A stretch of 56,714 bases of DNA from Luteitalea sp. (GTDB taxonomy: Bacteria; Acidobacteriota; Vicinamibacteria; Vicinamibacterales; Vicinamibacteraceae). Positions within the stretch are counted from its first letter, which is position 1; every line of letters begins with the position of its first letter. Location: positions 1 to 56,714 of the forward strand of contig WHTT01000007.1 of the NCBI GenBank assembly GCA_009377605.1, in the 5' to 3' direction. A model generated the notes under the pieces. It was not told the DNA's origin and did not search any database. It saw nothing but the letters and a program-made list of their open reading frames with translations. The translations under genes were made by a program, and so were the position numbers. Shown piece after piece: positions 27,768 to 52,622 of the stretch.

Positions 27768-29243
27768 CTAGTTTTGGTTCGCCAACGGGATCTCCAGCTG
27801 CGATGGCGGGGCTTTGAGGTCGGCACGGTGTCGCTCGACGAGCTGATTGATCTCCGCCACCACGCCGGGGTGATCTTTCGAGCGGTCGTACTGCTCCGAT
27901 GGGTCCTGCTGGAGGTGGAACAGGAGCGGTGGGTCGTGGGTCTCGGGAGCGTCGTCGCCGTAGCCCGCCTGGGTGATGAAGTGGGCCTTCCACGGGCCGT
28001 GACGGACGGCCATCAGGCGGTCGCCCCGATAGAAGAACATCGTGTCCCTTGGGCTCTTGCCGGTGCCGGACAGCACCGCGCTGAGATCGACGCCATCGAT
28101 GATGCGGTCATCCGGGACGGCGACGCCGGCCAGCTGCAGGCTCGTCGTGAAGATGTCCATCGTGCTCGCGACATCGAGCGACACGGCTCCGGCGGGAATG
28201 TGCCCGGGCCAGCGGGCGATGCCCGGGACGCGCATGCCGCCTTCCCATGTGCTGCCTTTGCCTTCCCGCAAGAGGCCGGCCGATCCGCCCTGTTCAGCGA
28301 ATGTCAGCCACGGTCCATTGTCGCTCGTGAACCAGACGATCGTGTTCTGGTCCAGGCCGAGCCGCTGGAGCGCGTCGAGGATCCGGCCGGTGCTTCGGTC
28401 GATTTCTTCGATCACGTCGCCGTACAGGCCGCGCGCGCTAACGCCCTCGAAGTCCGGAGAGCGGAAGAGCGGGACGTGCGGCATCGAGTGGGCCAGGTAG
28501 ACGAAGAAGGGCTGCTCGCGATGCTGCTCGATGAAACGGACGGCCTCATCGGTGTACCGCTTCGTGATCGTCGTCTGGTCCGCCGGGCGCTCGATGATTG
28601 TCTCGTTGCGCATCAAGGGAACGTTCCAGTACTCGATCTTCGGATCCGCAAAGGCGGCGCGGCCCTTGGGAACGTGCTCGTCGTTCAGGCGGTCCATGTC
28701 GTTCGAGTACGGGATGCCGTAGTAGAAGTCGAAGCCGTGGCGCGTCGGCAGAAAGGTCTCCAGGTGGCCCAGGTGCCACTTGCCGACGGCGGCGGTCGCA
28801 TAGTTCTTCGTCTTCAGGGCGCGGGCGAGCGTGATCTCATCGGCGGGCAGGCCACCGCCGGAATCGGGGAAGAGGACACGGCGGCGGTCGCTGGACATGC
28901 CGCTGCGGATGGGCAGCCGTCCCGTCAAGAGGGCGGCCCGGCTCGGCGTGCAGACCGACGCGGCGGCATAGAACTGTGTGAAGCGGATGCCCTCGGCGGC
29001 CATGCGATCGAGGCGAGGTGTGCGAATCGTAGGGTGGCCGTAGGCGCCGAGATCGCCGTAGCCCAGGTCGTCGGCGAACACTACGACGATGCTCGGCGGA
29101 GGGGCGTCCTTCGCTGCTTTGAGGGCCTGAAGGTCGCCTGCAGGGCGCGAAGCGATCGCATCCAACGTTGGTGGCCCGAGCAGCACGGCGCACATAGCGA
29201 CGCCTGGCCACAGCAGAACGCCGGTTGCTGAAGATACTGACAT
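27768..29243 (-). CDS. family S1 sulfatase, exported
   Basis: 491 residues with an N-terminal hydrophobic segment (GVLLWPGVAMCAVLLGPP) for export. VVVFADDLGYGDLG supplies the two metal Asp (D58, D59). CTPSR (C98) is the C-x-P-x-R motif whose Cys becomes formylglycine, with ALLTGRLPIRSG behind. Further family blocks: VGKWHLGHLETFLPTRHGFD and FVYLAHSMPHVPL. It hydrolyses a sulfate ester, probably of a polysaccharide, in the periplasm. A formylglycine-generating enzyme must be encoded elsewhere. Confidence 0.9.
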   Translation of the reverse strand: MSVSSATGVLLWPGVAMCAVLLGPPTLDAIASRPAGDLQALKAAKDAPPPSIVVVFADDLGYGDLGAYGHPTIRTPRLDRMAAEGIRFTQFYAAASVCTPSRAALLTGRLPIRSGMSSDRRRVLFPDSGGGLPADEITLARALKTKNYATAAVGKWHLGHLETFLPTRHGFDFYYGIPYSNDMDRLNDEHVPKGRAAFADPKIEYWNVPLMRNETIIERPADQTTITKRYTDEAVRFIEQHREQPFFVYLAHSMPHVPLFRSPDFEGVSARGLYGDVIEEIDRSTGRILDALQRLGLDQNTIVWFTSDNGPWLTFAEQGGSAGLLREGKGSTWEGGMRVPGIARWPGHIPAGAVSLDVASTMDIFTTSLQLAGVAVPDDRIIDGVDLSAVLSGTGKSPRDTMFFYRGDRLMAVRHGPWKAHFITQAGYGDDAPETHDPPLLFHLQQDPSEQYDRSKDHPGVVAEINQLVERHRADLKAPPSQLEIPLANQN

Positions 29244-33534: not shown

Positions 33535-33746
33535 GAGTGCAGCCTTCCGTGCGCTCGGGTAAGCGGTCAGTCCGAGATGCGCTCCCGAGAGTTGCTTCCT
33601 GTCGACCAAGAATGCCTCCATGTTGCAAGGCCGTAGGGATCGCTCCCGCAACAACGGAGGCATTCGAGCCGAGTACTGTCAGGATACCACGGAGGTTTGG
33701 AGGGATGCGGAGTGCAGGGGGCTAGCGGATTGACCAGCGGTCGTCG

Positions 33747-39605: not shown

Positions 39606-41378
39606 CTATTTGGCCCAGAAGACAGCCGAGGTCGTCACGAGCACGACAAGAACGAGCAGGCTCAGCGGCAAGCCGAGACGGGCGTAGTCGCCGAACCGGT
39701 ACCCACCAGGCCCATAGACCATCGTGTTCGTCTGGTACCCGAGAGGAGAGAGGAACGACAGCGAAGCAGCAATGGCCACCACGATCGCGAAGAGGCGCGG
39801 CTCTTCTCCAACGCGGCTCGCGGTGGCCATCGCAATCGGAAACATCAGAACTGCGGCGGCGTTGTTGGTAATGACTTCCGTGAAGAGCACGGTTGTCACG
39901 GCAATGGCGAGCAAGAGACCCAGCGTCCCCCAGCCGTCGAACGTCAAGACGATGAGCTGGGCGACCACCTCGGCGAGACCGGAGGTTGTCACAGCCGCGC
40001 CGAGACCGAAGGCGGCGGCGATGACGACGAGCACCTCGATGTTCACCGCGCTGCGGGCCTCGGCAGGCGTCATGACCCGAAAGGCCACGAGCGCCAGAGC
40101 CCCAGCCAGGGACGCCTGGACGATGGAAAACAGGCCCGTGGCTGCCGTGAGGACGATGCCCACCGTAATGGCGCCGACCAACGCCGCCTGTCGGGGCGTG
40201 GTCGGTGGCGGAGCGCCGTCCAGTCTGGAGACCAACAGGAAATCATTGCGATCTCGCCAGCGACTCCGAAATCCCGCATCGGCGAGCAGGAGCAGTGTGT
40301 CCCCCGGCTTCAACACGACGTCGCCCAGCTTTGCGCGTACCCGCGCGCCGGCTCGATGGATCGCCAGGACCGCAGCCTGGTAACGCGCACGGAACCCAGA
40401 TTCTCTGAGGCTTTTCCCTGCCAGCGGTGAGGCCTCGCTGACGACCGCTTCGAAGAACGACGTGTTCGGGCCGGCGACGAACGCCGCATGCTGCTGCTCG
40501 GTCGAGACCAGCCCCCTGGTCGACTGCAAGTCGGCCACGAGGTCCGCCCGTCCCACGAACATGAGCCGGTCTCCGCCGTGCAAGGTCGTATCCGGCGACA
40601 CCGGTGCGATGAACTCACCTTCTCGTTGCACCTCGACGAGGAAGACGCCGTGCAGATGCCGAAGCCCCGCTTGTTCGACGGTGCGGCCGTGCAACGGACC
40701 GCCCGGGGCCACGTTCATGCTGACCGCGAACTCGCGGATATCTTCCTCGAACTGCTGGCTGGCGGTCCGTCGGTCAGGCAGGAGGATCGGCGCCAGCATG
40801 AGGAGCGCGACAAGGCCCACACAGGCAACCGGAAGGCCGACCGGGCTGATCTCGAAGATCCCCAACGGGGCCTGCCCATCGGCCTGCAGCAGCCCCGACA
40901 CGACAATGTTGGTGGACGTACCGAGCACCGTGACCGTCCCGCCAAGAATCGCGGCAAACGACAAGGGCATGAGAAATCGGGACACTGGTTGGCCCCGCCG
41001 GCTTGCCCATGCGGCCACCTGCGGCGCCAGCATCGCGACGATCGGCGTGTTGTTCAAGAAGGCGGATGCGCAGGCTGCCGGGATGAGGAGCCGCGCCAAG
41101 CCGACACGAGCGCCGTCCCCGCTTCCAAGAGCTGCCGTGATGAGCGGCTGAAGGGCGCCCGTCTTCTCGATCGCGCGGGCGAGCACGTAGAGCGCCCCTA
41201 CGGTGAGCGGCGCCGGGTTGCTGAAACCAGCGAATGCCTCGTCGACAGTGACGACCTCCACCAGTAAGAGCACCACTATGGCTCCCAAGACCACCGCGGC
41301 CGGCGCGGCGACGTCCCGGACGAGCGCGACGATTGTCGAAACGAGAACCGCAAGAGTGAACCATGCTTCCCAGGTCAT
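39606..41378 (-). CDS. SLC13 family permease with two TrkA-C domains
   Basis: ATG at 41378 overlaps the HAD stop. Two halves of membrane helices (AWFTLAVLVSTIVALVRDVA; VVLTAATGLFSIVQASLAGA) flank a cytoplasmic insert at about 200-375 with two RCK_C/TrkA-C-like domains (ADLQSTRGLVSTEQQHAAFV; GDVVLKPGDTLLLLADAGFR). Anion-pocket motifs FLNNTPIVAMLAP and VLGTSTNIVVSGLL, and ITNNAAAVLMFPIAMATASR in the second half, fit the divalent-anion/Na+ symporter family. This architecture is shared with SAC1/SLT-type sulfate transporters. Lying beside two sulfotransferases, sulfate is the likely substrate. Confidence 0.85.
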   Translation of the reverse strand: MTWEAWFTLAVLVSTIVALVRDVAAPAAVVLGAIVVLLLVEVVTVDEAFAGFSNPAPLTVGALYVLARAIEKTGALQPLITAALGSGDGARVGLARLLIPAACASAFLNNTPIVAMLAPQVAAWASRRGQPVSRFLMPLSFAAILGGTVTVLGTSTNIVVSGLLQADGQAPLGIFEISPVGLPVACVGLVALLMLAPILLPDRRTASQQFEEDIREFAVSMNVAPGGPLHGRTVEQAGLRHLHGVFLVEVQREGEFIAPVSPDTTLHGGDRLMFVGRADLVADLQSTRGLVSTEQQHAAFVAGPNTSFFEAVVSEASPLAGKSLRESGFRARYQAAVLAIHRAGARVRAKLGDVVLKPGDTLLLLADAGFRSRWRDRNDFLLVSRLDGAPPPTTPRQAALVGAITVGIVLTAATGLFSIVQASLAGALALVAFRVMTPAEARSAVNIEVLVVIAAAFGLGAAVTTSGLAEVVAQLIVLTFDGWGTLGLLLAIAVTTVLFTEVITNNAAAVLMFPIAMATASRVGEEPRLFAIVVAIAASLSFLSPLGYQTNTMVYGPGGYRFGDYARLGLPLSLLVLVVLVTTSAVFWAK

Positions 41379-42055
41379 CCCTTGAATGTCAGCATGCGCT
41401 TGATCGATTCGAGTACCCCAGACCCGTTCTTGAGATCGTCCAGGCACTCCAGCATTGTGACCGCGTCTCCGATCGAGGAGACGACCTTGACGCCAAGGCG
41501 CGTCGCGGACGGTAGAGCTTCCTCACGGACACTGTCCCGAACCAAGATCGCTCTGGCCTGTGACTCTACGGCCACGTCGACGGCCTTGTCGAGCTGATCG
41601 TCGACGACCGCATCGAGCGTCAGCGCCTCTGCGACTTTGCCCCGCGAGCCTGTCACCACAAATACGCTCGGGCGGGCGAAGCCGTGCGCTTCGAGCCAGT
41701 GCTGGGTCTGAGTCTGGGTGGTGTCACCGGCTGTGGGTGGGCGAGTCGTGATGAAAATGACCTCCCAGCGGCGAGCGTGGGCGGTCGCCGCGATGCGCGC
41801 GACAATGCCGGCCTCGGTCTCGGCCAGGCACGTCCAAAAATTCTCAGTACGCTCCACCTGTCCCCAGAGCTCGGACTGCTGGCGAGCCGTCAGGGCATCC
41901 AGTGCCGGCGGCACGCCGCCGCCCAGCCTTGGGTCGCCGTTGCCTCGATCGCCCGGCTCGTCGGAAGTCCCAAACAACTCGCTGGCTATCTGCACAACCG
42001 CCGCATCCATATCGGCAAGCGTCCCGTCGAGGTCAAAGGCGACGCGCAGGGCCAT
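41375..42055 (-). CDS. HAD-superfamily phosphatase (5'-nucleotidase-like)
   Basis: ATG at 42055 (an alternative is 42073), overlapping the upstream gene by 23 bp. VAFDLDGTLADMDAAVVQIA carries the DxDGT nucleophile motif; WEVIFITTRPPTAGDTTQTQ holds motif II (T), KVAEALTLDAVVDDQLDKAV motifs III-IV. The layout matches the NT5C/deoxy-nucleotidase branch. In this operon it may hydrolyse a nucleotide by-product, for example 3',5'-ADP left by PAPS sulfotransferases, or a sugar phosphate; the sequence does not decide. Confidence 0.75.
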   Translation of the reverse strand: MALRVAFDLDGTLADMDAAVVQIASELFGTSDEPGDRGNGDPRLGGGVPPALDALTARQQSELWGQVERTENFWTCLAETEAGIVARIAATAHARRWEVIFITTRPPTAGDTTQTQTQHWLEAHGFARPSVFVVTGSRGKVAEALTLDAVVDDQLDKAVDVAVESQARAILVRDSVREEALPSATRLGVKVVSSIGDAVTMLECLDDLKNGSGVLESIKRMLTFKG

Positions 42056-43505
42056 GAGGTTTCTTCTCGTCATTGGCCGCAGAGCGACCCACTGCGCGCC
42101 TCCGGGTGCCAGCCGGTGCGACGGCAATCGCACACAGCACGGCAAAGAGCACGGCATTGCCGGGCATCTGGAGGCTGAATTCGACAACTTCCTGAACACC
42201 AATCGCGAGCAGGCCCGTGGCCGCACCCACTCGTGTCCAGTACGTGACACCAAGGTCGCCACGCCTTGCGTGCTCGGCAAATCGTGATCTCATCTCGTGA
42301 ATGAGGATCACCATGAGCGCCAGAAGGGGAAGCGCAACCAGCACACCCCCTTCTGCGGCCAACTGCAGCCAATCGTTGTGTGCGGCGGTCACGTTGTTGT
42401 CCGCCATGGCCCGCTGGTAGAAGATGTTCGCCGCGCTGAACGTCGCAAGACCCGTCCCGGTCCAGACGAAATCACGCAACATCGTCAGCGTATCACCCCA
42501 GATGGCCAGACGGCCACTGATAGAAGCCGTGTCCGCCTGCGCGAACCGTGCGGCGATCCCATCGATACCCGCCCAGCTCACGATGGTGGCGATGAGTCCC
42601 GCCATATACGCCAGTCGAATCGAGCGTCGCGCCGGCGCGGGCTGCCGACGCGCGATCATGACGATGGTGACGAGCACTGCACACGCAAACGCCGCGACAC
42701 CGGAGCGAGAGAGGGTCAACACGAGCGACAAGCCCATCGCGACGACGGCAAAACTGACGAGCACCACTCTGCTGCCTTCAGGCGTTGAGAGCCAAAGGAA
42801 GCGCTCTCGCGCAGCGAGCCTTTCACGGGGGAGCGTGCGGCTCAGCAATCCAAGGAGGTGTCCCATCGTCAATGGCAGGGCCATCAGCATCCAGCCGGCA
42901 AAGTGGTTCCGATTGACGAACGGTCCGAACGGATTTCTCCCTTCGAGCGGCATCCAGAAGCCGTAAATCCTTCCAGTGTACGTCGCCTTTTGAACGATCG
43001 CGATGATGGCGAGTGCTGCACCTAGCATGGCAATACTCAGCACGAGCCGCCTGAGCGTTGAACGCGAGAGCCCACTAGTGGTTCCGAGCAGCAGCAGACC
43101 AAGGCCGAGAAGGAAACTGAGCGCCCTCTCGGTCTGGTCGGGACGAATGCTGAGCGCATGATAGACCTCTGCGCTGCTCGCGACGCCCAGGCGATAGGTC
43201 AGGTCGTACTGCATGAGCACGGCGTGCGCTCCTGGGCTCAGGATTTCGAGGACTTGCCAGCGCAGGGGCGCGAGCTGCACGAGGATGGCGAGCAGTACGC
43301 ACCCCAACCCTCCCACCAGGCTCCATCGGATAGGTGCCGAAGCTTGTAGGAGCCCCCATAAGCCGCACACGGCTGTGGCGAGCACAAGGGGGCGATAGGC
43401 CCACGGATAGACGGCTCCAAATGCCAGCGCTCCCCACGCCAGCGTGAGAACGAGCGCCACGAGCCACGCCGTGCTAGCACCTCGCCGCTCGATCAAGCTG
43501 TTCAT
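42033..43505 (-). CDS. O-antigen ligase/polymerase family protein (Wzy_C)
   Basis: 490 residues with about 12 hydrophobic segments and the periplasmic loop block GPFVNRNHFAGWMLMALPLT (the conserved FVNRNHFA), LVLTLSRSGVAAFACAVLVT and GTGLATFSAANIFYQRAMAD, then AAHNDWLQLAAEGG, all typical of the PF04932 family. It joins polysaccharide repeats or transfers glycan to an acceptor. ATG at 43505 overlaps the dehydratase stop by 4 bp. It differs from the other polymerase-like protein (33747-35174). Confidence 0.85.
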   Translation of the reverse strand: MNSLIERRGASTAWLVALVLTLAWGALAFGAVYPWAYRPLVLATAVCGLWGLLQASAPIRWSLVGGLGCVLLAILVQLAPLRWQVLEILSPGAHAVLMQYDLTYRLGVASSAEVYHALSIRPDQTERALSFLLGLGLLLLGTTSGLSRSTLRRLVLSIAMLGAALAIIAIVQKATYTGRIYGFWMPLEGRNPFGPFVNRNHFAGWMLMALPLTMGHLLGLLSRTLPRERLAARERFLWLSTPEGSRVVLVSFAVVAMGLSLVLTLSRSGVAAFACAVLVTIVMIARRQPAPARRSIRLAYMAGLIATIVSWAGIDGIAARFAQADTASISGRLAIWGDTLTMLRDFVWTGTGLATFSAANIFYQRAMADNNVTAAHNDWLQLAAEGGVLVALPLLALMVILIHEMRSRFAEHARRGDLGVTYWTRVGAATGLLAIGVQEVVEFSLQMPGNAVLFAVLCAIAVAPAGTRRRAVGRSAANDEKKPHGPARRL

Positions 43506-45367
43506 GCGATGACCCCACCGCCGGCGCGCTCTGCAATGTCGGTCCTCGGCGTAAAGGATGGCACGACGAGGCGGAGCGTCTCGAGAACGCCTGGCGTATC
43601 GTCCTCCAGGGCGAATCGCTCCAGCAGTGTGACTTCACCATTCAAGCGCGCTGACGCAACACCCGCGCCGCACCGGACGCGATGGATGCTATCGACCTCA
43701 CATGCTTCCGCGACCTCGTCAGGGCCGAGCAGCTCTTCCTCGAGCTTCTCACCGGGCCGAACCCCTGTGAACACGATCTGAATGTCCTCGTCGGGTACGA
43801 ACCCGGCGAGCCGAATGAGATCGCGCGCCATGTCTGCCACCCTGATCTGATCGCCCATGTCCAACACGTAAATCGAGCCGGCCTCCAGCGCGGCAGCGTG
43901 AAGGACAAGCTGTACGGCCTCCGGAATGAGCATGAAGTAGCGCCGCATGTCAGGATGCGTCACGGTCACCGGACCACCAGCCTTGATCTGTGCCAAGAAG
44001 TGGGGCACCACGCTGCCGTTGCTGGCTAGAACGTTGCCGAAGCGAACGGTGACGAAACGTTTCGTGGTACCGGCTTGCGCGGATTGAACAATCAGCTCAG
44101 CCACGCGCTTGGTGGCGCCCATCACGCTGCTGGGGTTGACCGCCTTGTCGGTCGAGATCAACACGAAGCGGTCTACACCCCAACGCACGGCGCTTTCCAC
44201 CACCAAGCGGGTGCCACGCACATTGTTCTTGACGGCCTCACACGGGTTATCTTCCATCAGCGGTACGTGCTTGTGCGCCGCTGCGTGGAACACAATCTGG
44301 GGCCGGTGCTCCGCGAACACGTGCGCCAGCCGGTGTGCGTCGGTGATGTCTGCGATCGCCGGGGTCAGCTGTAGAGACGGTCCGGACCCAATGAGCTCAC
44401 CGTGGATTGCGTGGAGGCTGTTCTCGTAACGGTCGAGCAGGACGAGCTGCGCCGGTCGGGCCGCCACGATCTGGCGGCACAGCTCCGAGCCTATGGAGCC
44501 ACCGGCCCCGGTGACCAGGACGCGCTTGGCGTGCAAGAGGTGTTGCACACGCTGGGTATCCAGATCCACGGCCGCACGCGAGAGCAGATCTTCGACCACC
44601 AGACTGCGGATATGACTCACTTGGACGCGCCCGTCGACGATGTCGCGCATGCGGGGGAGTGTTTTGATGGGCAGCTTGAACGGCTCGAGCGCTCGCACGA
44701 TAGTGCGAATCGTGCGTGGATCGGCGCGTGGAATCGCGATCACGACCTCATGGGGACGAGCGGCGGCAATAATCTCGTCGAGATCGTCACGGCCGCCCAG
44801 CACGGGGATGCCGTGGATACTCTCTCCACGCTTGCCCGGATCATCATCCGCAAATGCGACAGGCTCGCATGGGTAGGCTGGATCATGCCGCATGTCTCGG
44901 ACGAGCAGCTCACCGGCATCACCTGCGCCATAAATCAGCACGCGATGTTCCTTCGGTGTGTGTTGAAGCTCCCGATAGATCCGACGGCTGAGGCGCATGC
45001 CGGTCATCATGCAGATGAGCAGCAGCATGTCGAGCACGAAGACGGACCGGGGATACGCCGTGACCTCCATCACTTGGTGCAGCAGGAGATAGAAGAGCAC
45101 GCTACTCGATCCAACAGCGAGAATGATATTCCGCAGATCCCATAGGCTCGTATATCGCCAGAGCCCCTCGAACATGCGCATCGGCACGAAGACGAACGCG
45201 CGAATCGCGATCAAGTAGGGGAGAAAGCGAATCCAGTTGGTGTAGTGCGCCTCGGGAATCGCGCCGTCGAACCTCAGCCAGAATGCGGCGTAGTTGGCGA
45301 ACACGATCGCGGAGAGGTGCAACAGGACCGACAACGGCCGGTGTATCGCGCGTACGAAGGCTCGCAT
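43502..45367 (-). CDS. membrane-bound UDP-sugar 4,6-dehydratase (PglF/WbpM/CapD type)
   Basis: Start set at ATG 45367 because the longer form (45418) begins inside a REP palindrome. Four N-terminal membrane helices (LLHLSAIVFANYAAFWLRFD; YLIAIRAFVFVPMRMFEGLW) and a CoA-binding-like domain (VLIYGAGDAGELLVRDMRHD) precede the SDR domain VLVTGAGGSIGSELCRQIVA. The catalytic MxxxK variant is in ISTDKAVNPSSVMGATKRVA. These enzymes convert UDP-GlcNAc to the 4-keto-6-deoxy sugar, the first step to bacillosamine-type or FucNAc-type sugars. The product feeds the neighbouring aminotransferase. Confidence 0.9.
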   Translation of the reverse strand: MRAFVRAIHRPLSVLLHLSAIVFANYAAFWLRFDGAIPEAHYTNWIRFLPYLIAIRAFVFVPMRMFEGLWRYTSLWDLRNIILAVGSSSVLFYLLLHQVMEVTAYPRSVFVLDMLLLICMMTGMRLSRRIYRELQHTPKEHRVLIYGAGDAGELLVRDMRHDPAYPCEPVAFADDDPGKRGESIHGIPVLGGRDDLDEIIAAARPHEVVIAIPRADPRTIRTIVRALEPFKLPIKTLPRMRDIVDGRVQVSHIRSLVVEDLLSRAAVDLDTQRVQHLLHAKRVLVTGAGGSIGSELCRQIVAARPAQLVLLDRYENSLHAIHGELIGSGPSLQLTPAIADITDAHRLAHVFAEHRPQIVFHAAAHKHVPLMEDNPCEAVKNNVRGTRLVVESAVRWGVDRFVLISTDKAVNPSSVMGATKRVAELIVQSAQAGTTKRFVTVRFGNVLASNGSVVPHFLAQIKAGGPVTVTHPDMRRYFMLIPEAVQLVLHAAALEAGSIYVLDMGDQIRVADMARDLIRLAGFVPDEDIQIVFTGVRPGEKLEEELLGPDEVAEACEVDSIHRVRCGAGVASARLNGEVTLLERFALEDDTPGVLETLRLVVPSFTPRTDIAERAGGGVIA

Positions 45368-45402
45368 GGGCAGGAGGAGCTGATGACGTCGAACGATGCC
45401 GT

Positions 45403-45453
45403 CGGGACACCTCGGCAAGGCGCCGACCGGCGCCTCGGTGAGGCGTCCCTACG
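45403..45453. repeat. REP-like palindrome, copy 4 (divergent)
   Basis: Inner palindrome AGGCGCCG-N2-CGGCGCCT with outer imperfect arms GGGACACCTC / GAGGCGTCCC; the arm GGGACGCCTC recurs in copy 1. It overlaps the stop codon of the aminotransferase gene and is the one intergenic insert in this part of the operon. Confidence 0.6.
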
Positions 45454-46639
45454 TGGTGCTGGCGGACAGGTGGTGTCCTAGGGCCTGACACACTTCATCG
45501 ACCTGTTGTTCCGTCATGACACTCGAAAACGGCAGCGCCAATGACCGTTTGCCAAGGTCTTCGGTGATTGGGTACTGTCCTTCCCGGTAACCAAAGGATT
45601 CCCGGTAGAACGGCTGAAGGTGAATAGGGGAGAAGTACGGCCGTGCAGGAATGCCGTCGCGTTCGAGGTCAAGGATGAGCTGATCTCGATCGACCGTGGT
45701 GGGGACGCGAACGACATAGACGAACCACGACATACGCGTGGTCGTCGAGACGGGCGCCGGTAGCTCGAGGAGCGGGTGTTCGCCAAGACGGTCGCTGTAC
45801 CACTTGGCGACCCTTGCCCGCTTCTCCAAGAGCTCGTCGAGGCGATGCAGCTGCGCGACACCGAGCGCCGCGCTCATCTCGTCCAGGCGGTAGTTGAATC
45901 CGAGCCGCGAATGGGTGAGCCAGCCATCGAACACGTCGCGACCCTGATTGCGGAGTGAGGCAAAGAGTGGTCCCCACTCAGCGTGTCGCGTGACGATCAT
46001 GCCGCCTTCACCAGTCGTCATTTGCTTGTTGGGATAGAAGGCAAAGACCCCGGCGTCGCCTAGGCTGCCCACCTTGCGCCCCTTGTATTCGGCGCCAATG
46101 GCTTCGCACGCGTCCTCGATGACGCGTAGACCGACGTGCTGCGCCGTCTGGAGTAAGGGGTCCATGTCGGCCGGCTGGCCGAAGGCGTGGACAGGCAGCA
46201 ACACCCTGACGTGGCCGCGTGGACGGGCGCTACCCCGCATCGACGGGGGGAGCCAGTGGTCCCCCGCGCGTCCGCCGCCCACCAGATCACTGACAGCCTG
46301 GGCGACGAGCTGCGCGTCGATATTACCAGTCCGCGCATCGACGTCCACGAACACGGGAATCGCACGCTCGTACAGAGCGACATTTGCGGACGCGACGAAG
46401 GAGAACGGTGAGGTGATGACAATGTCGCCATCTCGAACGTCCGCGGCAAGCATGCACAAGTGGAGCCCAGCCGTGCCACTCGCGACGCCGACTGCCCGGC
46501 GGACACCGACCAGGGCCGCCACTGCCTCCTCGAACCCACGAATTCGGGGACCAATGCTGAGATGCGTTCCTCGGAGCACGTCGAGGACTGCATCGATCTC
46601 AGCCTGCGTGATGTCCGGCGAGGACATGGAGATTCGCAT
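45449..46639 (-). CDS. DegT/DnrJ/EryC1 sugar aminotransferase
   Basis: 396 residues. ISMSSPDITQAEIDAVLDVL starts the family pattern; GVASGTAGLHLCMLAA holds the phosphate loop, VIEDACEAIGAEYKG the cofactor Asp, and FYPNKQMTTGEGG the PLP lysine (K205). RNQGRDVFDGWLTHSRLGFN and YRLDEMSAALGVAQL are further hallmarks. With the dehydratase next door it should aminate the 4-keto sugar (a PglE-like step). Start at 46639, 15 bp after the upstream stop. Confidence 0.9.
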   Translation of the reverse strand: MRISMSSPDITQAEIDAVLDVLRGTHLSIGPRIRGFEEAVAALVGVRRAVGVASGTAGLHLCMLAADVRDGDIVITSPFSFVASANVALYERAIPVFVDVDARTGNIDAQLVAQAVSDLVGGGRAGDHWLPPSMRGSARPRGHVRVLLPVHAFGQPADMDPLLQTAQHVGLRVIEDACEAIGAEYKGRKVGSLGDAGVFAFYPNKQMTTGEGGMIVTRHAEWGPLFASLRNQGRDVFDGWLTHSRLGFNYRLDEMSAALGVAQLHRLDELLEKRARVAKWYSDRLGEHPLLELPAPVSTTTRMSWFVYVVRVPTTVDRDQLILDLERDGIPARPYFSPIHLQPFYRESFGYREGQYPITEDLGKRSLALPFSSVMTEQQVDEVCQALGHHLSASTT

Positions 46640-46654
46640 TACTTCTGGGTACGC

Positions 46655-47704
46655 CTAAAGGCCTGCGCTACGCACGATCTGATCGTGGCTCGGTTGATCG
46701 GCTCGGCGAGAAGCGAGCCGATCGTACGCCCCACAGATTCGGCGCTCTTCCTCGCGGCTCAGCAATGCCTCGTTCGTGCACTGAAAGGACGGGGGCCCGT
46801 CGTAATTCCCTCTTAACTCGAAGCCAAGTGCCTCGAATGACGCTTGAAGCCGCGACCATACTTCGCCGGGATGTTGACAAAACGCCTCGTAGTCGACCTG
46901 TATAGCTCTTTGCGTCGGTAGAAGGGCGAGCTCCTGTGAAATCGATTCGTTCGTGAAGAGCACCTGACCCGCGACCTGCGTGTAGGGATCTTCGTGCTGC
47001 AGCCACTCGAATTCCGGGGGACGAACGGAAAACCACGCCGTCTTTGTCCCGTAGACCCTCTCGCGGGCATTCAAAAGGGACCGTATGTTGTGGAAGGGCT
47101 CGCGTCGCGTGTGGATGAAAATTGCCAGGGGCAACCACTCCGCCAGCTGTACGAGATTGTATTGCAGCAGAATCCCCTTGGCTGCCACCGGCTTGTCGAA
47201 GACCGCTTCGATCGACGCCCAGCCTGCGGCGAAACCTGCGGCATCCGACGCCTCCAGCTCTGCATCGGTCAATTTCCTCGCTTGATCAATGGGAAAGAAA
47301 CGGCGCCAATAGTACGAGAACTCGTGCGGCTGCAGCATGCCCCGTGTCTTGCCCACGTCGGAGACCCACTCACAATCTTCCCGGCCGGCGGCAAGCAGCT
47401 CGTCGCGATAGTCCATTGCCGGATCGGTGAGGAGCTGTTGGATCCGACTGCCCATGTATGGCGCGCCGAAGAATCGAGCGAGCAGGTTACTCGGGTAGGC
47501 AAAGCGCTGTGACGCAGCGAGCCACTGCAACGCCAGCGTCGTTCCACTCCGAGGTGCGCCGACGATGAAGACCGTGGGCCGTTGAGGTGTGCGCGCCTGT
47601 TCGCGAACCGCCTCCATCTCGGCGTGCCCCAACAGCCGGTTGAGCGTGTGAAGCGTTTGTTCCTGCTGCGAGTGTGCAGCGAACTCGGTCGTTCGCTTGA
47701 CCAT
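46655..47704 (-). CDS. sulfotransferase-family protein (EPS, second)
   Basis: Start chosen at ATG 47704 (MVKRTTEFAAHSQQEQTLHT), 13 bp after the ATP-grasp stop; an upstream start at 47785 would overlap that gene. PTVFIVGAPRSGTTLALQWL is the PAPS 5'-phosphosulfate loop. ATFIHTRR-type block LAIFIHTRREPFHNIRSLLN is the 3'-phosphate site. It differs much from the sulfotransferase at 37327, so the two probably modify different positions or sugars. Cytoplasmic by sequence. Confidence 0.85.
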   Translation of the reverse strand: MVKRTTEFAAHSQQEQTLHTLNRLLGHAEMEAVREQARTPQRPTVFIVGAPRSGTTLALQWLAASQRFAYPSNLLARFFGAPYMGSRIQQLLTDPAMDYRDELLAAGREDCEWVSDVGKTRGMLQPHEFSYYWRRFFPIDQARKLTDAELEASDAAGFAAGWASIEAVFDKPVAAKGILLQYNLVQLAEWLPLAIFIHTRREPFHNIRSLLNARERVYGTKTAWFSVRPPEFEWLQHEDPYTQVAGQVLFTNESISQELALLPTQRAIQVDYEAFCQHPGEVWSRLQASFEALGFELRGNYDGPPSFQCTNEALLSREEERRICGAYDRLASRRADQPSHDQIVRSAGL

Positions 47705-47717
47705 AGCCAACGCCTCG

Positions 47718-48710
47718 CTAAAGCTTTTCCACGCCTTCGTGGACCAATCGAAGCTCCTGCTCGAAGAACGGTTCCTGAGGGCCACCGATGATGTCCAGTC
47801 GCTTCATCATGACGACATTTGCGGCGAAGGACAGGTCCAGCTCCGGGCGCTTGCCCTTGACCAGGTCGATCAAGATGCGAGGAAAGTCGGCTCCCGCAAG
47901 ATGCGAGACGGGGTAACCGCCGCCGAACCTTGTATTGGCTTCGAGGACAACCAGTGACTCGTGTGTGCGGACCAGGTCGACGTCCATGGGGCCAGCCACA
48001 CGTAACAGGCGGGCCAATCGGATCCCGAAGTCCAGCACGTCCGGATCGCGGAATGTCTGAGCCGCCTCTGTCTCACCAAGGCGTGATTGCACCTTCCGCC
48101 ACGTGCACAGCGCCAAAGGAGAACCGTCGAGATCACCACAGACTTCGATGTCGAACTCCTCGCCGATCGCTTGCTCTTGAATGATCATGTCTGGCGCATA
48201 GTTGAAGAATGCCTCCAGCTCACGGTCATCTCGTGCGAGGGACGTCTGATAGCTTCCAGACCCGCATCGAGGTTTTACGAACAGCGGAAACCTGAAGTCT
48301 CGTGCTTCCGCAATGGTCAACGCCGTCCTCGGCGTGGCGATGCCATTGCTCGAGAGGAACTGGAAGGTCCGGTATTTGTCGTAGGTGATCTCTGCGACCT
48401 CCGCCGTTGGGATGAACGGCACGATGCGCAGAGCTTCCAGCTGCCCGCGAATCCGTGAGAGTCGATACACATCAGGGTCGGAGAACGAAAGGACGGCATC
48501 GACGTGCTCCTGCTCGCAGAGCTCGAGCATCGCCGGCAGATAGCGCTCATCGACGATGTCCGGCATCAAGAAGGCGGCATCGCAGGCGCGGAAGCCCGGT
48601 GTCCATCGCGTGTTCCCGGTTCCAATGATCCGATCGCCTGGGGCGAGGTGCCGCCGGAAGAAGTCCGCGATGTAGCCGCGCTTCCCGATACAGGAAAAGA
48701 GGAGGTTCAC
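47718..48710 (-). CDS. ATP-grasp ligase (CarB-like fold)
   Basis: 330 residues. MNLLFSCIGKRGYIADFFRR is an N-terminal Rossmann-like domain. PLFVKPRCGSGSYQT and MIIQEQAIGEEFDIEVCGDL are ATP-binding blocks, and MDVDLVRTHESLVVLEANTR then FGGGYPVSH form the Mg-binding end, as in carbamoyl-phosphate synthetase and D-Ala-D-Ala ligase-like enzymes. It would activate a carboxylate as acyl phosphate and join it to an amine. The 4-bp overlap with the PLP decarboxylase suggests the two act in sequence. Confidence 0.85.
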   Translation of the reverse strand: MNLLFSCIGKRGYIADFFRRHLAPGDRIIGTGNTRWTPGFRACDAAFLMPDIVDERYLPAMLELCEQEHVDAVLSFSDPDVYRLSRIRGQLEALRIVPFIPTAEVAEITYDKYRTFQFLSSNGIATPRTALTIAEARDFRFPLFVKPRCGSGSYQTSLARDDRELEAFFNYAPDMIIQEQAIGEEFDIEVCGDLDGSPLALCTWRKVQSRLGETEAAQTFRDPDVLDFGIRLARLLRVAGPMDVDLVRTHESLVVLEANTRFGGGYPVSHLAGADFPRILIDLVKGKRPELDLSFAANVVMMKRLDIIGGPQEPFFEQELRLVHEGVEKL

Positions 48711-49957
48711 GCGTCCACCGAATAGTTTGCGAGCAAGTCAGACAGCGTAGAGCCGCGACGGAGGAGGCGGACTTCGTCGCCACGAAGCTCCACGATAGCC
48801 GGAGTCCCTCGGATGAAAGGGGCATTCAAGACATTGCTATAGGCGCCGACGTTCTCAACGATCACCCAGTCGCCCTCGGCGATCGTCCCTGCGTAGCCCG
48901 TATGGAGGACGTCGATCTCCATGCAGGTATGCCCGACGACATCGACCATGCCCGCAACGCTTGCATCCGAGCTCGAGGATGCCGGCATGACAGTGATCGG
49001 AAGGTTGACACTGCCACGTAGAGGCTTGACGTTGAAGACCGAGCCGTCGACCACGGCGAGACTGCGGTCTTGCAGGCGCTTGACAGCCTGAACACGGGTG
49101 ACCAGGGTCATCGTGTCGGCGAGAACGCCCATGCCGGGCTCGAGAATGAGCATGGGGCCTTCAGCACCGTACGCCTCGGCCATTTGGCCGCCAACGGATG
49201 CCGCGTAGTCAGCAAAGCTGGACGGCGGTGTGGGGAACTGAGCGGCGAGCTCATGGCTCATTCGGCTGCTGAAGCCGCCACCGATATTCAGGAAGTCGAG
49301 GGGACGTCCTCCCAATACCGAGGCGTGCAAGTGAGCCATTTGCCGCATCCGGTCCTGATATCGCGGAGCGCTCCGATCTCCCGAATAGTGACAATGGAGA
49401 CCAACGATTTGCACATTTGGACACGCGTCCAGCGTCTTCACGACGGCCTGTCCGTCGGCAGCGTCCAGGTCCACGCCGAATCGTGAACGCGGTGTGAGCC
49501 GGCCGAGATTGCAGCGCACGCCCACCGAGAAATCGGTTCTGGCGTCTCTTGCGATCTCCGCTACGAGGCGTGCCTCGGCGAGCGAGTCGATGTTCACACG
49601 CGCGCCGGCGTGGAGCGCCAACTCCAAGTCTGGAGCGGTCTTCACGGGCCCATTGAAGATGATTTTGCTCCCTGGGATACCGAGGGCCATGGCGAGGTCG
49701 AGCTCTACCCGTGATACGACCTCCGAGTACGCCCCGAGGTCGTGTGCCAAGCGGATGAACGCCGGCAGATAGTTTGTCTTGTACGAGTAGCCGACGGAGG
49801 TCCTCGGGTAGTAGCTCCGGAATGATGCGAGAAGCGCAGACATATTCGCGCGAAGGCGCCCCGTATCTGCGACGTAGAACGGCGAACCATGGCTCGCCGC
49901 GACCATGGCCAGCACAGTCGCGTCAGGTTGCACGGCAGCGGCCGGCGCGTTAGCCAA
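48707..49957 (-). CDS. fold-III PLP-dependent decarboxylase (DAP/ornithine type)
   Basis: GYSYKTNYLPAFIRLAHDLG carries the PLP lysine; YSEVVSRVELDLAMALGIPG, LHCHYSGDRSAP, LDFLNIGGGFSS (Gly loop for phosphate) and LILEPGMGVLADT follow. HTCMEIDVLHTGYAGTIAEG is the C-terminal block with the active-site Cys of the partner subunit, and VENVGAYSNVLN holds the Tyr. It decarboxylates an amino acid such as diaminopimelate, lysine or ornithine. The start is uncertain: TTG 49957 has AAAGGTGG ahead and just overlaps the upstream stop; ATG 50005 would overlap by 56 bp; ATG 49909 is shorter. Confidence 0.85.
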   Translation of the reverse strand: MANAPAAAVQPDATVLAMVAASHGSPFYVADTGRLRANMSALLASFRSYYPRTSVGYSYKTNYLPAFIRLAHDLGAYSEVVSRVELDLAMALGIPGSKIIFNGPVKTAPDLELALHAGARVNIDSLAEARLVAEIARDARTDFSVGVRCNLGRLTPRSRFGVDLDAADGQAVVKTLDACPNVQIVGLHCHYSGDRSAPRYQDRMRQMAHLHASVLGGRPLDFLNIGGGFSSRMSHELAAQFPTPPSSFADYAASVGGQMAEAYGAEGPMLILEPGMGVLADTMTLVTRVQAVKRLQDRSLAVVDGSVFNVKPLRGSVNLPITVMPASSSSDASVAGMVDVVGHTCMEIDVLHTGYAGTIAEGDWVIVENVGAYSNVLNAPFIRGTPAIVELRGDEVRLLRRGSTLSDLLANYSVDA

Positions 49958-50573
49958 GGTCCACCTTTCTCGGATCGCCTCGCTCGATGAGGGTGCTACT
50001 GTCAAGCACGGTTGTCAGCGTTCGAGCGAGGATGCCGAGATCCATGGCGAGACTGTAGTGACGCACATAGTGGACGTCCAGCTCGACGCGTTGCGACCAG
50101 GTGAGGCTGTGTCGCCCACGCACCTGGGCGAGGCCGGTGATCCCTGGTCGCATCTCGAAACGCTGCTGCTGAGAGGGATTCATCCGCGCCGCATAATCAA
50201 GGGGCACTGGGCGCGGTCCCACCAGTGTCATCTCGCCTTTCAAGACGTTGATGAGCTGCGGGAGCTCGTCGAGGCTCCAACGGCGAAGGAACCTACCGAT
50301 ACGCGTGACGCGTGGCTTGACGGGCCGCCCGTCGTTATCCAAATACGCATCGGCGTCCGGAATCATTGATCGGAACTTGTACACGCGGAAGGGGCGACCC
50401 CCAGCGCCAGCGCGTTCGGCGACAAACAACACAGGGCCCCGATCCTCCGTCTTGATGAGGACTGCAATGACCGCGAAGAGTGGCGAGAGCGGGATCAACG
50501 CGATCAGGGCGAGTACTCGATCGAAGCCGTGCTTGACGACGAGTTGAGCGCCGCGTGAGCGGGATTCCCTCAT
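49950..50573 (-). CDS. initiating sugar transferase (PglC/WcaJ C-terminal type)
   Basis: ATG at 50573 overlaps the methyltransferase stop (ATGA). VVKHGFDRVLALIALIPLSP is the membrane segment; GRPFRVYKFRSM, RRWSLDELPQLINVLKGEMT, LVGPRPVPL and RPGITGLAQVRGRHSLTW are the phosphoglycosyl-transferase motifs, with the catalytic Asp-Glu in LDELP. It moves a sugar-1-phosphate from UDP to undecaprenyl phosphate, starting the repeat unit. The short form without the WcaJ N-terminal domain resembles PglC, which uses UDP-diacetyl-bacillosamine. Confidence 0.9.
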   Translation of the reverse strand: MRESRSRGAQLVVKHGFDRVLALIALIPLSPLFAVIAVLIKTEDRGPVLFVAERAGAGGRPFRVYKFRSMIPDADAYLDNDGRPVKPRVTRIGRFLRRWSLDELPQLINVLKGEMTLVGPRPVPLDYAARMNPSQQQRFEMRPGITGLAQVRGRHSLTWSQRVELDVHYVRHYSLAMDLGILARTLTTVLDSSTLIERGDPRKVDLG

Positions 50574-51463
50574 CGTTCCTCGACGAGCCTTGCCAAGTTG
50601 CGTTCCTCCCACTGCCCGTCCAGCCGGACCGTGTACGTCGAGCCTGCGCGGACCAGTTGCGGATTCACGATCCAGGAGACAGACTCGTTCGAGAAGATGA
50701 GTTGCTCATCGAACCAGAGCTCCTGAGTCCAGACAATCGTGTTGAACATACCCGGCGCGCCGCTCTGGATCTCGAGCCCACTGACCGATGGAGCGCCGGC
50801 TTTCCCGTAATCGATGTCAGCGACTGGCTCGGGATCCGACAAGAGCCGCGCCTGGCTCAGGTCGAGTCGACCGTCTCGGTCGCGCACGGGAAACTGCGGT
50901 TTCCATGGCTCTGCGGTGACGGCTTCGCACAACCCCTGAAATCTGAGGTCGTACCGCCCCTCCAGGTCCGCAATGTCGGCTCGAAGGCGCGCTTGTCGAG
51001 TCTTGTGATCCTGTTGGGGCCACTCACACGCACGCGCGTAGTAGCGCACACGATTCGGCACGACACAGCCGCCGTTCGCCAGGAACCTCTCTTTGAGTCG
51101 GAACACCAGCTTGGTCTGGCGGTCATCCCGGCGCGGATCGTTCAAGTAGACCATGGCCAGAATCACATCGAAGGTATTGCGCTCTGCCGGCAGATCGAAG
51201 TCCCAGAGATCCGCCTCCACGAACTGGAGACGCGACGCCATGCCGTTCTCCGAAGCCAATCTCCGGGCGAGTGCGAGCGTGTCCACATCGACACCAACGA
51301 CACGGTCTGCACCCGCATCGATGGCCCACATGGCCAGTAGGCCTACTCCGCAGCCAGCATCTAGCACCTTCGCCCCAGGACGTATGGTGTCTCGAATGAT
51401 CGATCGGAGCGTGAGCGCTCGCTCATAGTGGAGGAGCAAGTTCAGGTGTTGATACGGCGTCAT
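50570..51463 (-). CDS. PRMT-like class I methyltransferase in the EPS locus
   Basis: Start at ATG 51463 (MTPYQHLNLLLHYERALTLR), overlapping the upstream GT by 41 bp; an alternative start is 51583. The N-terminal helix followed by IRPGAKVLDAGCGVGLLAMW, then AIDAGADRVVGVDVDTLALA is much like protein arginine methyltransferases, as is ILAMVYLND in place of the double-E loop. The C-terminal half (FQGLCEAVTAEPWKPQFPVR; VWTQELWFDEQLIFSNESVS) is a beta-barrel-like extension as in PRMTs. The acceptor may be a nitrogen of a sugar or a protein; unknown. Confidence 0.75.
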   Translation of the reverse strand: MTPYQHLNLLLHYERALTLRSIIRDTIRPGAKVLDAGCGVGLLAMWAIDAGADRVVGVDVDTLALARRLASENGMASRLQFVEADLWDFDLPAERNTFDVILAMVYLNDPRRDDRQTKLVFRLKERFLANGGCVVPNRVRYYARACEWPQQDHKTRQARLRADIADLEGRYDLRFQGLCEAVTAEPWKPQFPVRDRDGRLDLSQARLLSDPEPVADIDYGKAGAPSVSGLEIQSGAPGMFNTIVWTQELWFDEQLIFSNESVSWIVNPQLVRAGSTYTVRLDGQWEERNLARLVEER

Positions 51464-52622
51464 CCGTAGTCTGCGTGAATCGCATGTACTCTTGCGCCAA
51501 GGCCTTCCAGATTGCCTCCGGCTGAAAGTCACGGAGGACGCGCTCACGACCGGCTCGGCCGTGCGTCTGGCGTCGATCGTCATCCGTGATGTAACGCTCG
51601 ATTGCCGCCGTCAAGCGCGCCACGTCCCGGACCGGTACCAGCGTGCCCGTTACGTCGTCGACCACCGCATCCACGCAGCCGGGAATATGCGTTGCCACGG
51701 TAGGCAGTTTCATCGCGGCGGCCTCCAGGAGTACGTTGGGAAGGCCTTCCCGGTACGTGGGGAGGACGACGAGATCCATTGCCGGATAGAGAGAGGCGGA
51801 GTCCGCGTAGCCCACCAGGTGGACCCGCGCGTCTTCCTGGAGACGCGAGACGATATCGTGGGACACGGGCTCGCTCGATTCCAAGCGCCCCACCACCAAG
51901 AGATGAAGATGAGCATGGCGGCAACGGAGCTCCTGCCACGCGTCGGCGAGCTCGACGATGCCTTTGTCTCGCACCAACCGCCCGACGAATCCAATGACCA
52001 GGGCCTCACCGGGAATGTCATGGCGTTGTCGGACCGCGACGCGCGATGGCGCGCGAGCCGGATTGAAACGAGCGCTGGCATCGACGCCGTTGCCGCCATG
52101 GTGCAAGACAACAATCTTGGAAGCGGCACAAATTCCCTCCGCGATTGCGACCTCGCGGAGTGAGCGGCTGACGCAGAAGACTCGATGCGCCAGCAGGCAC
52201 GAAGTCCGCTCCGTCCACTTCAGCAACTGGCGCTGCCAGCCGGCGGCTGTCACGAAAGGCAAGCCCCGCATGTGATAGAAGCGTACCGGCACCCGCGTCA
52301 GCACCGCGCTGATCAGACCCAGCAGGCCACCCTTTGGGGTGTGCGCGTGGACAATGTCGGCGCGGTACCGGCGCAGCCAGCTCGTGATGCGTGCAACGGC
52401 CCGCAGATCCGACAGTGGCGCGATCTGGCGCGGCATCGACACCGCATGCACCGGAACCTCTTCCTGTTCTCCGAACTGGTCCAGCTCTGGTCCCGGCGAG
52501 GAAATCGCGGCGATATCGAAGCCTTGCGCCTTCATGAACCCGACCTGGCCGCCAAGGAAACGCAGCGATTGGGGCACGGTTGTAATGTGGACGATTCTCA
52601 ATCGTTCTCGTCGGGCAACCAC
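51423..52622 (-). CDS. glycosyltransferase family 4
   Basis: RLRIVHITTVPQSLRFLGGQ, VGFMKAQGFDIAAISSPGPE, DIVHAHTPKGGLLGLISAVL, VIGFVGRLVRDKGIVELADA and LPTYREGLPNVLLEAAAMKL (EX7E motif) mark a GT4 enzyme close to those adding the second sugar (PglA-like, GalNAc/FucNAc transferases). It follows the Wzc-like gene by 39 bp. Acts in the cytoplasm on the undecaprenyl-linked sugar. Confidence 0.9.
   Translation of the reverse strand: MVARRERLRIVHITTVPQSLRFLGGQVGFMKAQGFDIAAISSPGPELDQFGEQEEVPVHAVSMPRQIAPLSDLRAVARITSWLRRYRADIVHAHTPKGGLLGLISAVLTRVPVRFYHMRGLPFVTAAGWQRQLLKWTERTSCLLAHRVFCVSRSLREVAIAEGICAASKIVVLHHGGNGVDASARFNPARAPSRVAVRQRHDIPGEALVIGFVGRLVRDKGIVELADAWQELRCRHAHLHLLVVGRLESSEPVSHDIVSRLQEDARVHLVGYADSASLYPAMDLVVLPTYREGLPNVLLEAAAMKLPTVATHIPGCVDAVVDDVTGTLVPVRDVARLTAAIERYITDDDRRQTHGRAGRERVLRDFQPEAIWKALAQEYMRFTQTTDDAVSTPELAPPL

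Follow-up and report, generated by a model that had tools for sequence, protein, structure and literature searches.

A decarboxylase and an ATP-grasp ligase encoded at a Luteitalea exopolysaccharide locus: a candidate sugar-decorating module with relatives in phage cassettes

A candidate conjugation module

The window analysed here is a stretch of 56,714 nucleotides from Luteitalea sp. (genome G000, 97.5% complete; contig C7, positions 1-56714), which carries, within an exopolysaccharide (EPS) locus, the genes for a fold-III pyridoxal phosphate (PLP) decarboxylase and an ATP-grasp ligase next to that for a PglC-like initiating sugar-phosphate transferase. Judging from sequence, we propose that decarboxylase and ligase may form a sugar-decorating conjugation module, in which the ATP-grasp enzyme would join an amino acid to a sugar and the decarboxylase would act afterwards; a probability of roughly 45% is assigned to this reading. 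We put forward just as tentatively, at slightly less than even odds, that the two enzymes, sometimes accompanied by a PIG-L deacetylase, could constitute a portable module placing amino-acid-derived amines on bacterial EPS precursors and on the sugars of phage DNA, with parts exchanged.

The three genes lie on the minus strand in overlapping order, as had been described in a previous sequence-only reading of this DNA and as coordinates and Pfam matches confirmed (the end of the PglC gene had been read there at the ATG at 50573). The transferase gene (Bac_transf; 49950-50612; PF02397, 1.2e-62) starts with GTG, the ATG at 50573 being a possible alternative. With starts as called, it overlaps by 56 nt the decarboxylase gene (48707-50005; PF02784, Orn_Arg_deC_N, 2.3e-26; PF00278, 1.1e-10; start TTG), and the latter overlaps by 4 nt the ligase gene (47718-48710), which encodes a 330-aa protein with a PylC-like N domain and an ATP-grasp_3 domain (PF21360, 2.7e-16; PF02655, 4.5e-14).

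In the proposed mechanism, the ATP-grasp enzyme would spend ATP to couple an amino acid, through an amide bond, to the sugar made and loaded by the PglF-type, DegT-type and PglC-type enzymes. The acceptor would most likely be a free amine of the sugar, supplied by DegT in Luteitalea and by PIG-L in Bacillota; with such an acceptor, the bond has to be formed by the side-chain carboxylate of the amino acid, and subsequent alpha-decarboxylation would give an amide of the gamma-aminobutyrate or beta-alanine type. The decarboxylase would thus strip the alpha-carboxylate of the ligated amino acid so that a short group bearing an amine remains, the predicted product being a 4-aminobutanoyl amide (from Glu) or a 3-aminopropanoyl amide (from Asp). 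We infer the amide bond, the acceptor, the order of the steps and the identity of the amino acid alike. The same three predicted activities (PIG-L deacetylase, ligase and decarboxylase) recur in Bacillota EPS loci and in phage contigs L157 and L158.

FigC, SbnH, AcsE, MccE and BtrK have been grouped as polyamine-unrelated decarboxylases, and the substrates of FigC, SbnH and AcsE are amino acids already joined to citrate, according to the part of the article cited here (PMC7857480). Ligation before decarboxylation is favoured because these three enzymes act on conjugates, so that the window decarboxylase would probably act after ligation, as FigC does. The PDB name of BtrK likewise indicates a conjugated substrate (acyl carrier protein).

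The decarboxylase belongs to a non-LysA clade

The window decarboxylase has the features of an alanine racemase-fold (fold III) PLP decarboxylase, namely a predicted barrel fold, the PLP lysine and the catalytic cysteine. Its best NCBIfam name was that of LysA (TIGR01048), on which it scored 171 bits and did not reach the cut-off of 297.9; a separate LysA-like gene was found in the same genome, on contig C45. On the FslC model it scored 115 bits (cut-off, 500). By profile, the nearest solved chain was the N-citrylornithine decarboxylase FigC/FslC (4.7e-58), followed by diaminopimelate decarboxylase (DAPDC; 2.6e-49) and BtrK (8.6e-36).

In the DAPDC of Thermotoga, Arg249 and Arg285 hold the distal carboxylate of meso-diaminopimelate (DAP) and Glu315 its amino group, as stated in the part of PMC8277567 relied on here. 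The equivalent positions were placed by motif (EPGR, R[PT]A[LI]Y and CE), the Thermotoga sequence itself lying outside the alignment, on 32 decarboxylases, comprising 25 clade members (12 bacterial and 13 phage), 5 LysA and 2 stand-alone enzymes. All three DAP-binding residues were lost in 25/25 clade members and retained in 5/5 LysA, the change at the second place being a milder one, to Lys, in three rows. The window enzyme has M, K and M at the three positions (its motifs are EPGM, VKPL and GHTCMEID), and the two stand-alone enzymes retain the first Arg only. The two Arg motifs behaved likewise in a separate alignment that included 10 LysA. For its part, the catalytic Cys was present in all 25 clade members, and the PLP Lys in the 24/24 rows covering it, the other row being a fragment. 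In the predicted model (mean pLDDT, 73.6), residues 324-333 and 357-364 had values below 50.

In the decarboxylase tree, the 12 bacterial rows stood on one side of a branch, with LysA and the stand-alone pair on the other (100/99), and upon addition of the 13 phage rows the 25 clade members remained together (100/99), the phage rows forming one group in 82% of the bootstrap trees. On these alignments, the enzyme is a fold-III PLP decarboxylase of a separate, non-LysA clade, and a LysA or polyamine decarboxylase role was rejected on score, residues and clade. If the proposed reading holds, it also gives a reason against annotating such decarboxylases as LysA.

Conservation in a second Luteitalea genome

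The gene order methyltransferase-PglC-decarboxylase-ATP-grasp-sulfotransferase-DegT-PglF-Wzy was retained in a second Luteitalea genome (G297), together with the gene at 41375-42280, with 63-83% protein identity (methyltransferase, 77.5%; sulfotransferase, 74.6%; DegT, 81.8%; PglF, 83.4%). Between both genomes, NG86 dN/dS values were 0.188 for the decarboxylase, 0.134 for the ATP-grasp enzyme, 0.151 for PglC, 0.106 for DegT and 0.084 for PglF, with dS values of 0.85-1.18. The maintenance of the block in a genome of the same genus, with low dN/dS, argues that the window arrangement is not due to chance.

In both Luteitalea genomes the pair and the initiating-sugar genes remain together, whereas several of the remaining cluster genes are not the same. 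In G297, the space between Wzc and the conserved block holds a heparinase II/III-like gene (L030:10564-12705) and one for a glycosyltransferase, and a search of 39.5 kb of that genome (tblastn, 1e-8) gave no match to the window flippase (38211), the second sulfotransferase (37327), the glycosyltransferases (35187 and 51423) or four further window genes.

Distribution and bacterial neighbourhoods

The decarboxylase is rare and patchy. It was found in 3 of 297 genomes of the window's phylum (single-sequence search, 1e-40) and in 4 of 193 genomes of its class (profile, 1e-55), counts that include the window's own genome and, in each case, one genome with the stand-alone enzyme (G190, placed there later, and G796, respectively). 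The phylum of Heliophilum yielded 5 of 398 genomes (1e-60), the centre genome included; the search of the class around G332 (82 genomes) returned only G332 itself, and a second Bacillota sample gave the same set plus G330. The scan of genome contigs produced 66 decarboxylase loci, the best 6 of which were taken as members by score and motifs, while 9 of the other 60 were aligned and were all LysA-like. The Ureibacillus decarboxylase had no match either among plasmids at 1e-25 or among named phages at 1e-20. A plasmid search with the window enzyme gave 31 records, the top one with 31% identity, in which the matching features carried the names LysA, alanine racemase, hypothetical or GNAT; Salmonella plasmids (11 records) carry a fold-III PLP protein, 26% identical to the window enzyme, under the label GNAT family N-acetyltransferase.

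The EPS clade comprised 12 rows (the window, L035, L036, L038, L039, L037, L106, L034, L107, L108, L109 and L115); several of its contigs were short, and open reading frame (ORF) picking was crude in GC-rich DNA, so that absences are weak. A PglC-type gene lay directly beside the decarboxylase gene in 8 of the 12 loci (upstream in 5 and downstream in 3), with one gene between them in L034. The ATP-grasp gene adjoined it in 6/12, two genes intervening in L108, and the combination PglC-decarboxylase-ATP-grasp recurred in Bacillota polysaccharide loci of Ureibacillus, Heliophilum and RUG357, all three of which also have PIG-L, adjoining in two of them and some 5 kb from the decarboxylase in the other. 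PIG-L was present in four loci, adjacent to PglC in L038 and L039, about 5 kb from the decarboxylase in L036, and also in L107. Neither an ATP-grasp enzyme nor an HpcH/HpaI aldolase was seen in the stretch of L115 that was read.

Two other arrangements were observed. In G477 (L109:8894-10822), a cytidylyltransferase is fused to a clade decarboxylase beside another type of ATP-grasp enzyme, and the following gene resembles a sialic-acid synthase, as judged by eye. In G796 (L116:7821-10234) and G190 (L033:9576-12069), a stand-alone ATP-grasp and decarboxylase pair, ligase first and with an ETGR motif, has no recognised EPS genes nearby; its decarboxylases form a sister branch to those of the EPS clade.

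Presence of PglD and amino-sugar genes

The sequence-only reading had noted that no PglD-like acetyltransferase is encoded in the window. This was borne out, and in the whole of G000 none of the 16 places at E<=0.001 scored high enough for the curated cut-off of a NeuD/PglD-type protein; other hexapeptide-type places are present in the genome, so that an acetylating enzyme may be encoded elsewhere. None was found in G297 at 1e-15. Among the 13 other decarboxylase-bearing genomes, two (G333 and G760) have a NeuD/PglD over the cut-off and 11 do not, yet the control genomes have one in just 4 of 14 cases, so that absence from decarboxylase genomes says little. In G333 (L039), a NeuD/PglD-type gene over the cut-off (PF17836) lies just upstream of PIG-L-PglC-decarboxylase-ATP-grasp. 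The suggestion that the pair replaces PglD was not sustained by the genome survey, since G333 carries both and the absences elsewhere are little informative; as a general rule it was rejected because of G333.

The pair had also been tied to the PglF and DegT amino-sugar genes. Seven EPS-clade loci have the ATP-grasp gene beside the decarboxylase or with two genes between them, and only the two Luteitalea loci among them carry both PglF and DegT (BLAST, stretches read); in the phage stretches examined, no best hit to either was obtained, and this link was abandoned. The two observations named beforehand as speaking against that reading were therefore each made at least once, namely a PglD-type gene co-occurring with the pair (G333) and the pair in loci without amino-sugar genes. 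Of the idea that the ATP-grasp enzyme acylates the 4-amino group with an amino acid, amide-forming sugar decoration stands as the most reasonable function, as does the recurrence beside PglC, and PglD replacement and amino-sugar specificity do not stand.

The ligase and the phage cassettes

The solved chain closest to the window ATP-grasp enzyme was 2pn1 (3.5e-35). Residues K146, N259 and R261, to which we presumptively ascribe functional roles, were invariant in a 5-row alignment. In the ATP-grasp tree, the Bacillota EPS and phage enzymes formed one clade (21 rows, 100/99), and two phage enzymes accompanied by PIG-L (L142 and L146) fell among the Bacillota EPS ones (100/99); the enzymes of L142-L145 are 55-56% identical to that of Ureibacillus. 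This tree was built without L108 and L109 (long branches), L132 and the phage enzymes missed by ORF picking, and with 4 of the 8 unpaired homologues fetched.

A scan of IMG/VR with the decarboxylase profile revealed decarboxylase-ATP-grasp pairs in two contigs; L122 also carries terminase and RusA genes (Pfam). Its decarboxylase gave four weak matches in named phages (23-26%). The phage set finally consisted of 24 contigs from scans with decarboxylase, ATP-grasp and glycosyltransferase alignments, after merging of repeats (re-fetched contigs; L143-L145 with L142; L148 with L135, whose decarboxylase is identical; and L160 with L159, since their match figures were identical and L160 was regarded as a near-copy), with L130 and L131 kept apart in the count although nearly identical. 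By BLAST, these 24 contigs contained a glycosyltransferase in 24 cases, ATP-grasp in 23, terminase in 22, decarboxylase in 14, a ParB-like gene in 19 (plus 2 weak ones) and a UDP-galactopyranose mutase-type gene in 10 (GLF by Pfam in both contigs scanned), co-occurrence being partly by construction because the contigs were found through the cassette genes themselves. PIG-L was present in five (L142, L146, L157, L158 and L174), including two of the 14 decarboxylase contigs (L157 and L158); the PIG-L enzymes of L158 and of the Heliophilum locus share 47.7% identity.

The decarboxylase was always accompanied by an ATP-grasp enzyme (14/14; in these contigs ParB-like 12 and terminase 13), and nine contigs, some of them short pieces (L129 ends within the glycosyltransferase), had an ATP-grasp enzyme without decarboxylase. 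This pattern fits ligation as the first step and decarboxylation as optional tailoring. A scan with the glycosyltransferase only, whose query came from such cassettes, gave 19 loci (2 on new contigs), 18 with ATP-grasp and 11 with decarboxylase.

Overall, the cassette contains genes for a ParB-like protein, an ATP-grasp enzyme, a glycosyltransferase resembling TET-associated glycosyltransferases (TAGT), a decarboxylase, a conserved unknown protein (phrog_16866 in L122) and terminase, in varying order (L122, L123, L126, L134-L138, L150, L153, L157-L159, L164 and related IMG/VR contigs), often with UDP-galactopyranose mutase and sometimes with PIG-L. Nine of 13 members of the glycosyltransferase matched PF20691 (TET-associated) at E<=0.01 (best, 2.6e-7); with respect to its cut-off of 27.5 bits, the first member (23.1) and L150 (20.2) were under and L142 (56.9) over. 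The model of the enzyme matched solved structures weakly (best E, 1.2e-4), better matches being viral predicted TAGT and beta-glucosyl-HMC-alpha-glucosyltransferase models. TAGT enzymes act on 5-hydroxymethylcytosine in DNA, and C5-cytosine methylase genes were found in L131, L138 and L139. The phage gene sets look made for adding sugars to DNA, cassettes with such glycosyltransferases being taken by us as DNA hypermodification systems. Two further phage genes were observed, one for a GNAT acetyltransferase joined to a sugar-transfer-associated ATP-grasp (PF14397; L138:2624-4339) and one, Mur-ligase-like, directly upstream of a decoration cassette (L159:4082-5398).

Weighing of the alternatives

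Several points weigh against the proposed module. By predicted fold, the window decarboxylase matched DAPDC (1tuf) first and FigC second. Both Luteitalea ATP-grasp enzymes fall outside the Bacillota/phage ligase clade, and by path the window enzyme is nearest, after the copy of the sister genome, to homologues unpaired with a decarboxylase; the transfer of function to it is therefore weaker, and in Luteitalea the ligase may have been recruited independently and have another function. Four of the 12 EPS-clade loci carry an HpcH/HpaI aldolase, with no ATP-grasp enzyme seen in the stretch read (L037 and L034 by Pfam; L106 and L107 by BLAST to L037). The aldolase gene is beside the decarboxylase or one gene away, and a class IV aminotransferase is also present in three of them (L037 by Pfam; L106 and L107 by BLAST), which suggests a decarboxylase acting there on a free amino acid. 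In 19 of the 24 phage contigs PIG-L was missing from the stretch read, so that most of them give no sign of a sugar amine. Finally, the order of steps is drawn by analogy, and the substrate, the product and the polymer structure are all predictions.

The aldolase loci bear also on the second suggestion of the sequence-only reading, in which the decarboxylase would first make a free amine and the ATP-grasp enzyme would then attach that amine to a uronic acid in the repeat unit, since such loci are as expected for free-amine synthesis. The Campylobacter jejuni capsule offers a precedent, in which Cj1436 makes ethanolamine phosphate and the ATP-grasp domain of Cj1438 amidates glucuronic acid (GlcA), as given in the cited parts of PMC11800379 and PMC11800397. 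The heparinase II/III-like gene of the sister locus may point to uronates, and a UDP-sugar dehydrogenase was found in 11 of 14 genomes (E<=1e-20), although G333 was the one genome with this gene inside the locus, at a distance of about 9 kb from the pair; in G330 it lies some 20 kb off on the contig of the locus, and the two of G000 are on other contigs. None was found at that threshold in G407, G707 and G796, whose assemblies are possibly incomplete, PIG-L being the gene that recurs instead, and the nine phage contigs with ATP-grasp but no decarboxylase speak against an amine made beforehand. PIG-L and these cassettes favour ligation to a sugar amine, and in the subgroup with aldolase and aminotransferase genes a free amino acid is the favoured substrate; altogether, we regard uronate amidation as the less likely of the two readings.

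Less probable still, and in our view improbable, is a role of the pair in the synthesis of some small molecule, for example an amide resembling a siderophore or a cofactor, with no connection to the polymer, the EPS placement of the pair being due to chance or co-regulation. The FigC-type enzymes do belong to siderophore pathways, at least in the cited part of PMC7857480. The related pair of G190 and G796 lies outside recognised EPS genes, but it is a separate branch with ETGR, and the EPS-clade decarboxylase adjoins PglC-type genes in two phyla and is kept with them in both Luteitalea. As for a second lysine-pathway (diaminopimelate) or polyamine decarboxylase beside an unrelated housekeeping ATP-grasp enzyme, the LysA name speaks for it; the score under the cut-off, the lost DAP-binding residues, the separate clade (100/99) and the LysA-like gene elsewhere in the genome make it very improbable.

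Other genes of the window locus

The PglF-type, DegT-type and PglC-type genes of the bacillosamine pathway are all present in the window (Pfam). The DegT-type sugar aminotransferase (45449-46639, minus strand; PF01041, 1.7e-105) and the PglF-type nucleotide-sugar 4,6-dehydratase (43502-45418, minus strand; PF02719, 2.6e-109) had been placed just downstream of the pair; both were found there, with one gene, for a sulfotransferase (46655-47785, minus strand; PF13469, 3e-13), intervening between the pair and DegT. On the other side, the conserved neighbour is a SAM-dependent methyltransferase-like gene (50570-51583, minus strand; Pfam search of window proteins), and the gene at 41375-42280, conserved in the sister genome, has no Pfam match. 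Pectate-lyase-like (31318-33663) and sulfatase (27768-29243) genes are also present at the EPS locus; together with the heparinase II/III-like gene of the sister genome, they suggest a sulfated, perhaps uronate-containing polymer.

Significance and comparison with known systems

If the proposed module is real, it would be a pathway for the amine-bearing decoration of polysaccharides, and it would link slime and capsule chemistry to phage DNA camouflage, with the decarboxylase clade and related ATP-grasp ligases serving both. It predicts aminobutanoyl or aminopropanoyl amides on EPS sugars and amine-bearing sugars on phage DNA, detectable by mass spectrometry. Neither PglC-decarboxylase-ATP-grasp nor the phage cassette was among the literature matches listed (partly the best 20 of 44 and 20 of 67), and it may be that the phage cassettes have been published before.

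The FigC/FslC group (SbnH, AcsE, MccE and BtrK) resembles the window decarboxylase in fold and in the catalytic Lys and Cys, with Met after the Cys in both FigC and the window enzyme. However, FigC has ELGR where the clade has mostly EPG[MTSV], the clade lies in sugar loci, and an ATP-grasp enzyme replaces the NIS synthetase or acyl-carrier partner. In butirosin biosynthesis (BtrJ/BtrK), a LysA-fold decarboxylase is likewise involved and an aminobutyryl-type group is put on an aminoglycoside amine (PMC11405602, in the part cited). BtrK works on an acyl carrier protein, as its PDB name indicates, whereas none was noticed at the window, where no search was aimed at one.

C. jejuni capsule amidation shares a decarboxylase and an ATP-grasp enzyme amidating a capsule sugar. 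There, the TupA-like ATP-grasp of Cj1438C is joined to a glycosyltransferase (GT2) and acts on GlcA with ethanolamine phosphate or serinol phosphate (PMC11800379 and PMC11800397, in the parts cited), whereas the window has a stand-alone PylC-like ATP-grasp, without a TupA-GT2 fusion, and a LysA-related decarboxylase. The phage amide ligase CmoY, an asparagine-synthetase homologue, joins glycine to carboxymethylcytosine and has ParB-domain genes nearby (PMC12783734, in the part cited); its chemistry differs from that proposed for the cassettes, with which it shares a common theme and the ParB-domain neighbours.

The bacillosamine pathway (PglF/PglE/PglD/PglC) has PglF-type, DegT and PglC-type counterparts in the window, but G000 has no PglD over the cut-off, and the decarboxylase and ATP-grasp genes are inserted. 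In the phage TAGT cassettes, the acceptor would be a sugar on DNA and not an EPS precursor, and the window ATP-grasp enzyme comes from another branch; what they have in common with the window locus is a decarboxylase of the same clade and an ATP-grasp enzyme, encoded there beside a glycosyltransferase.

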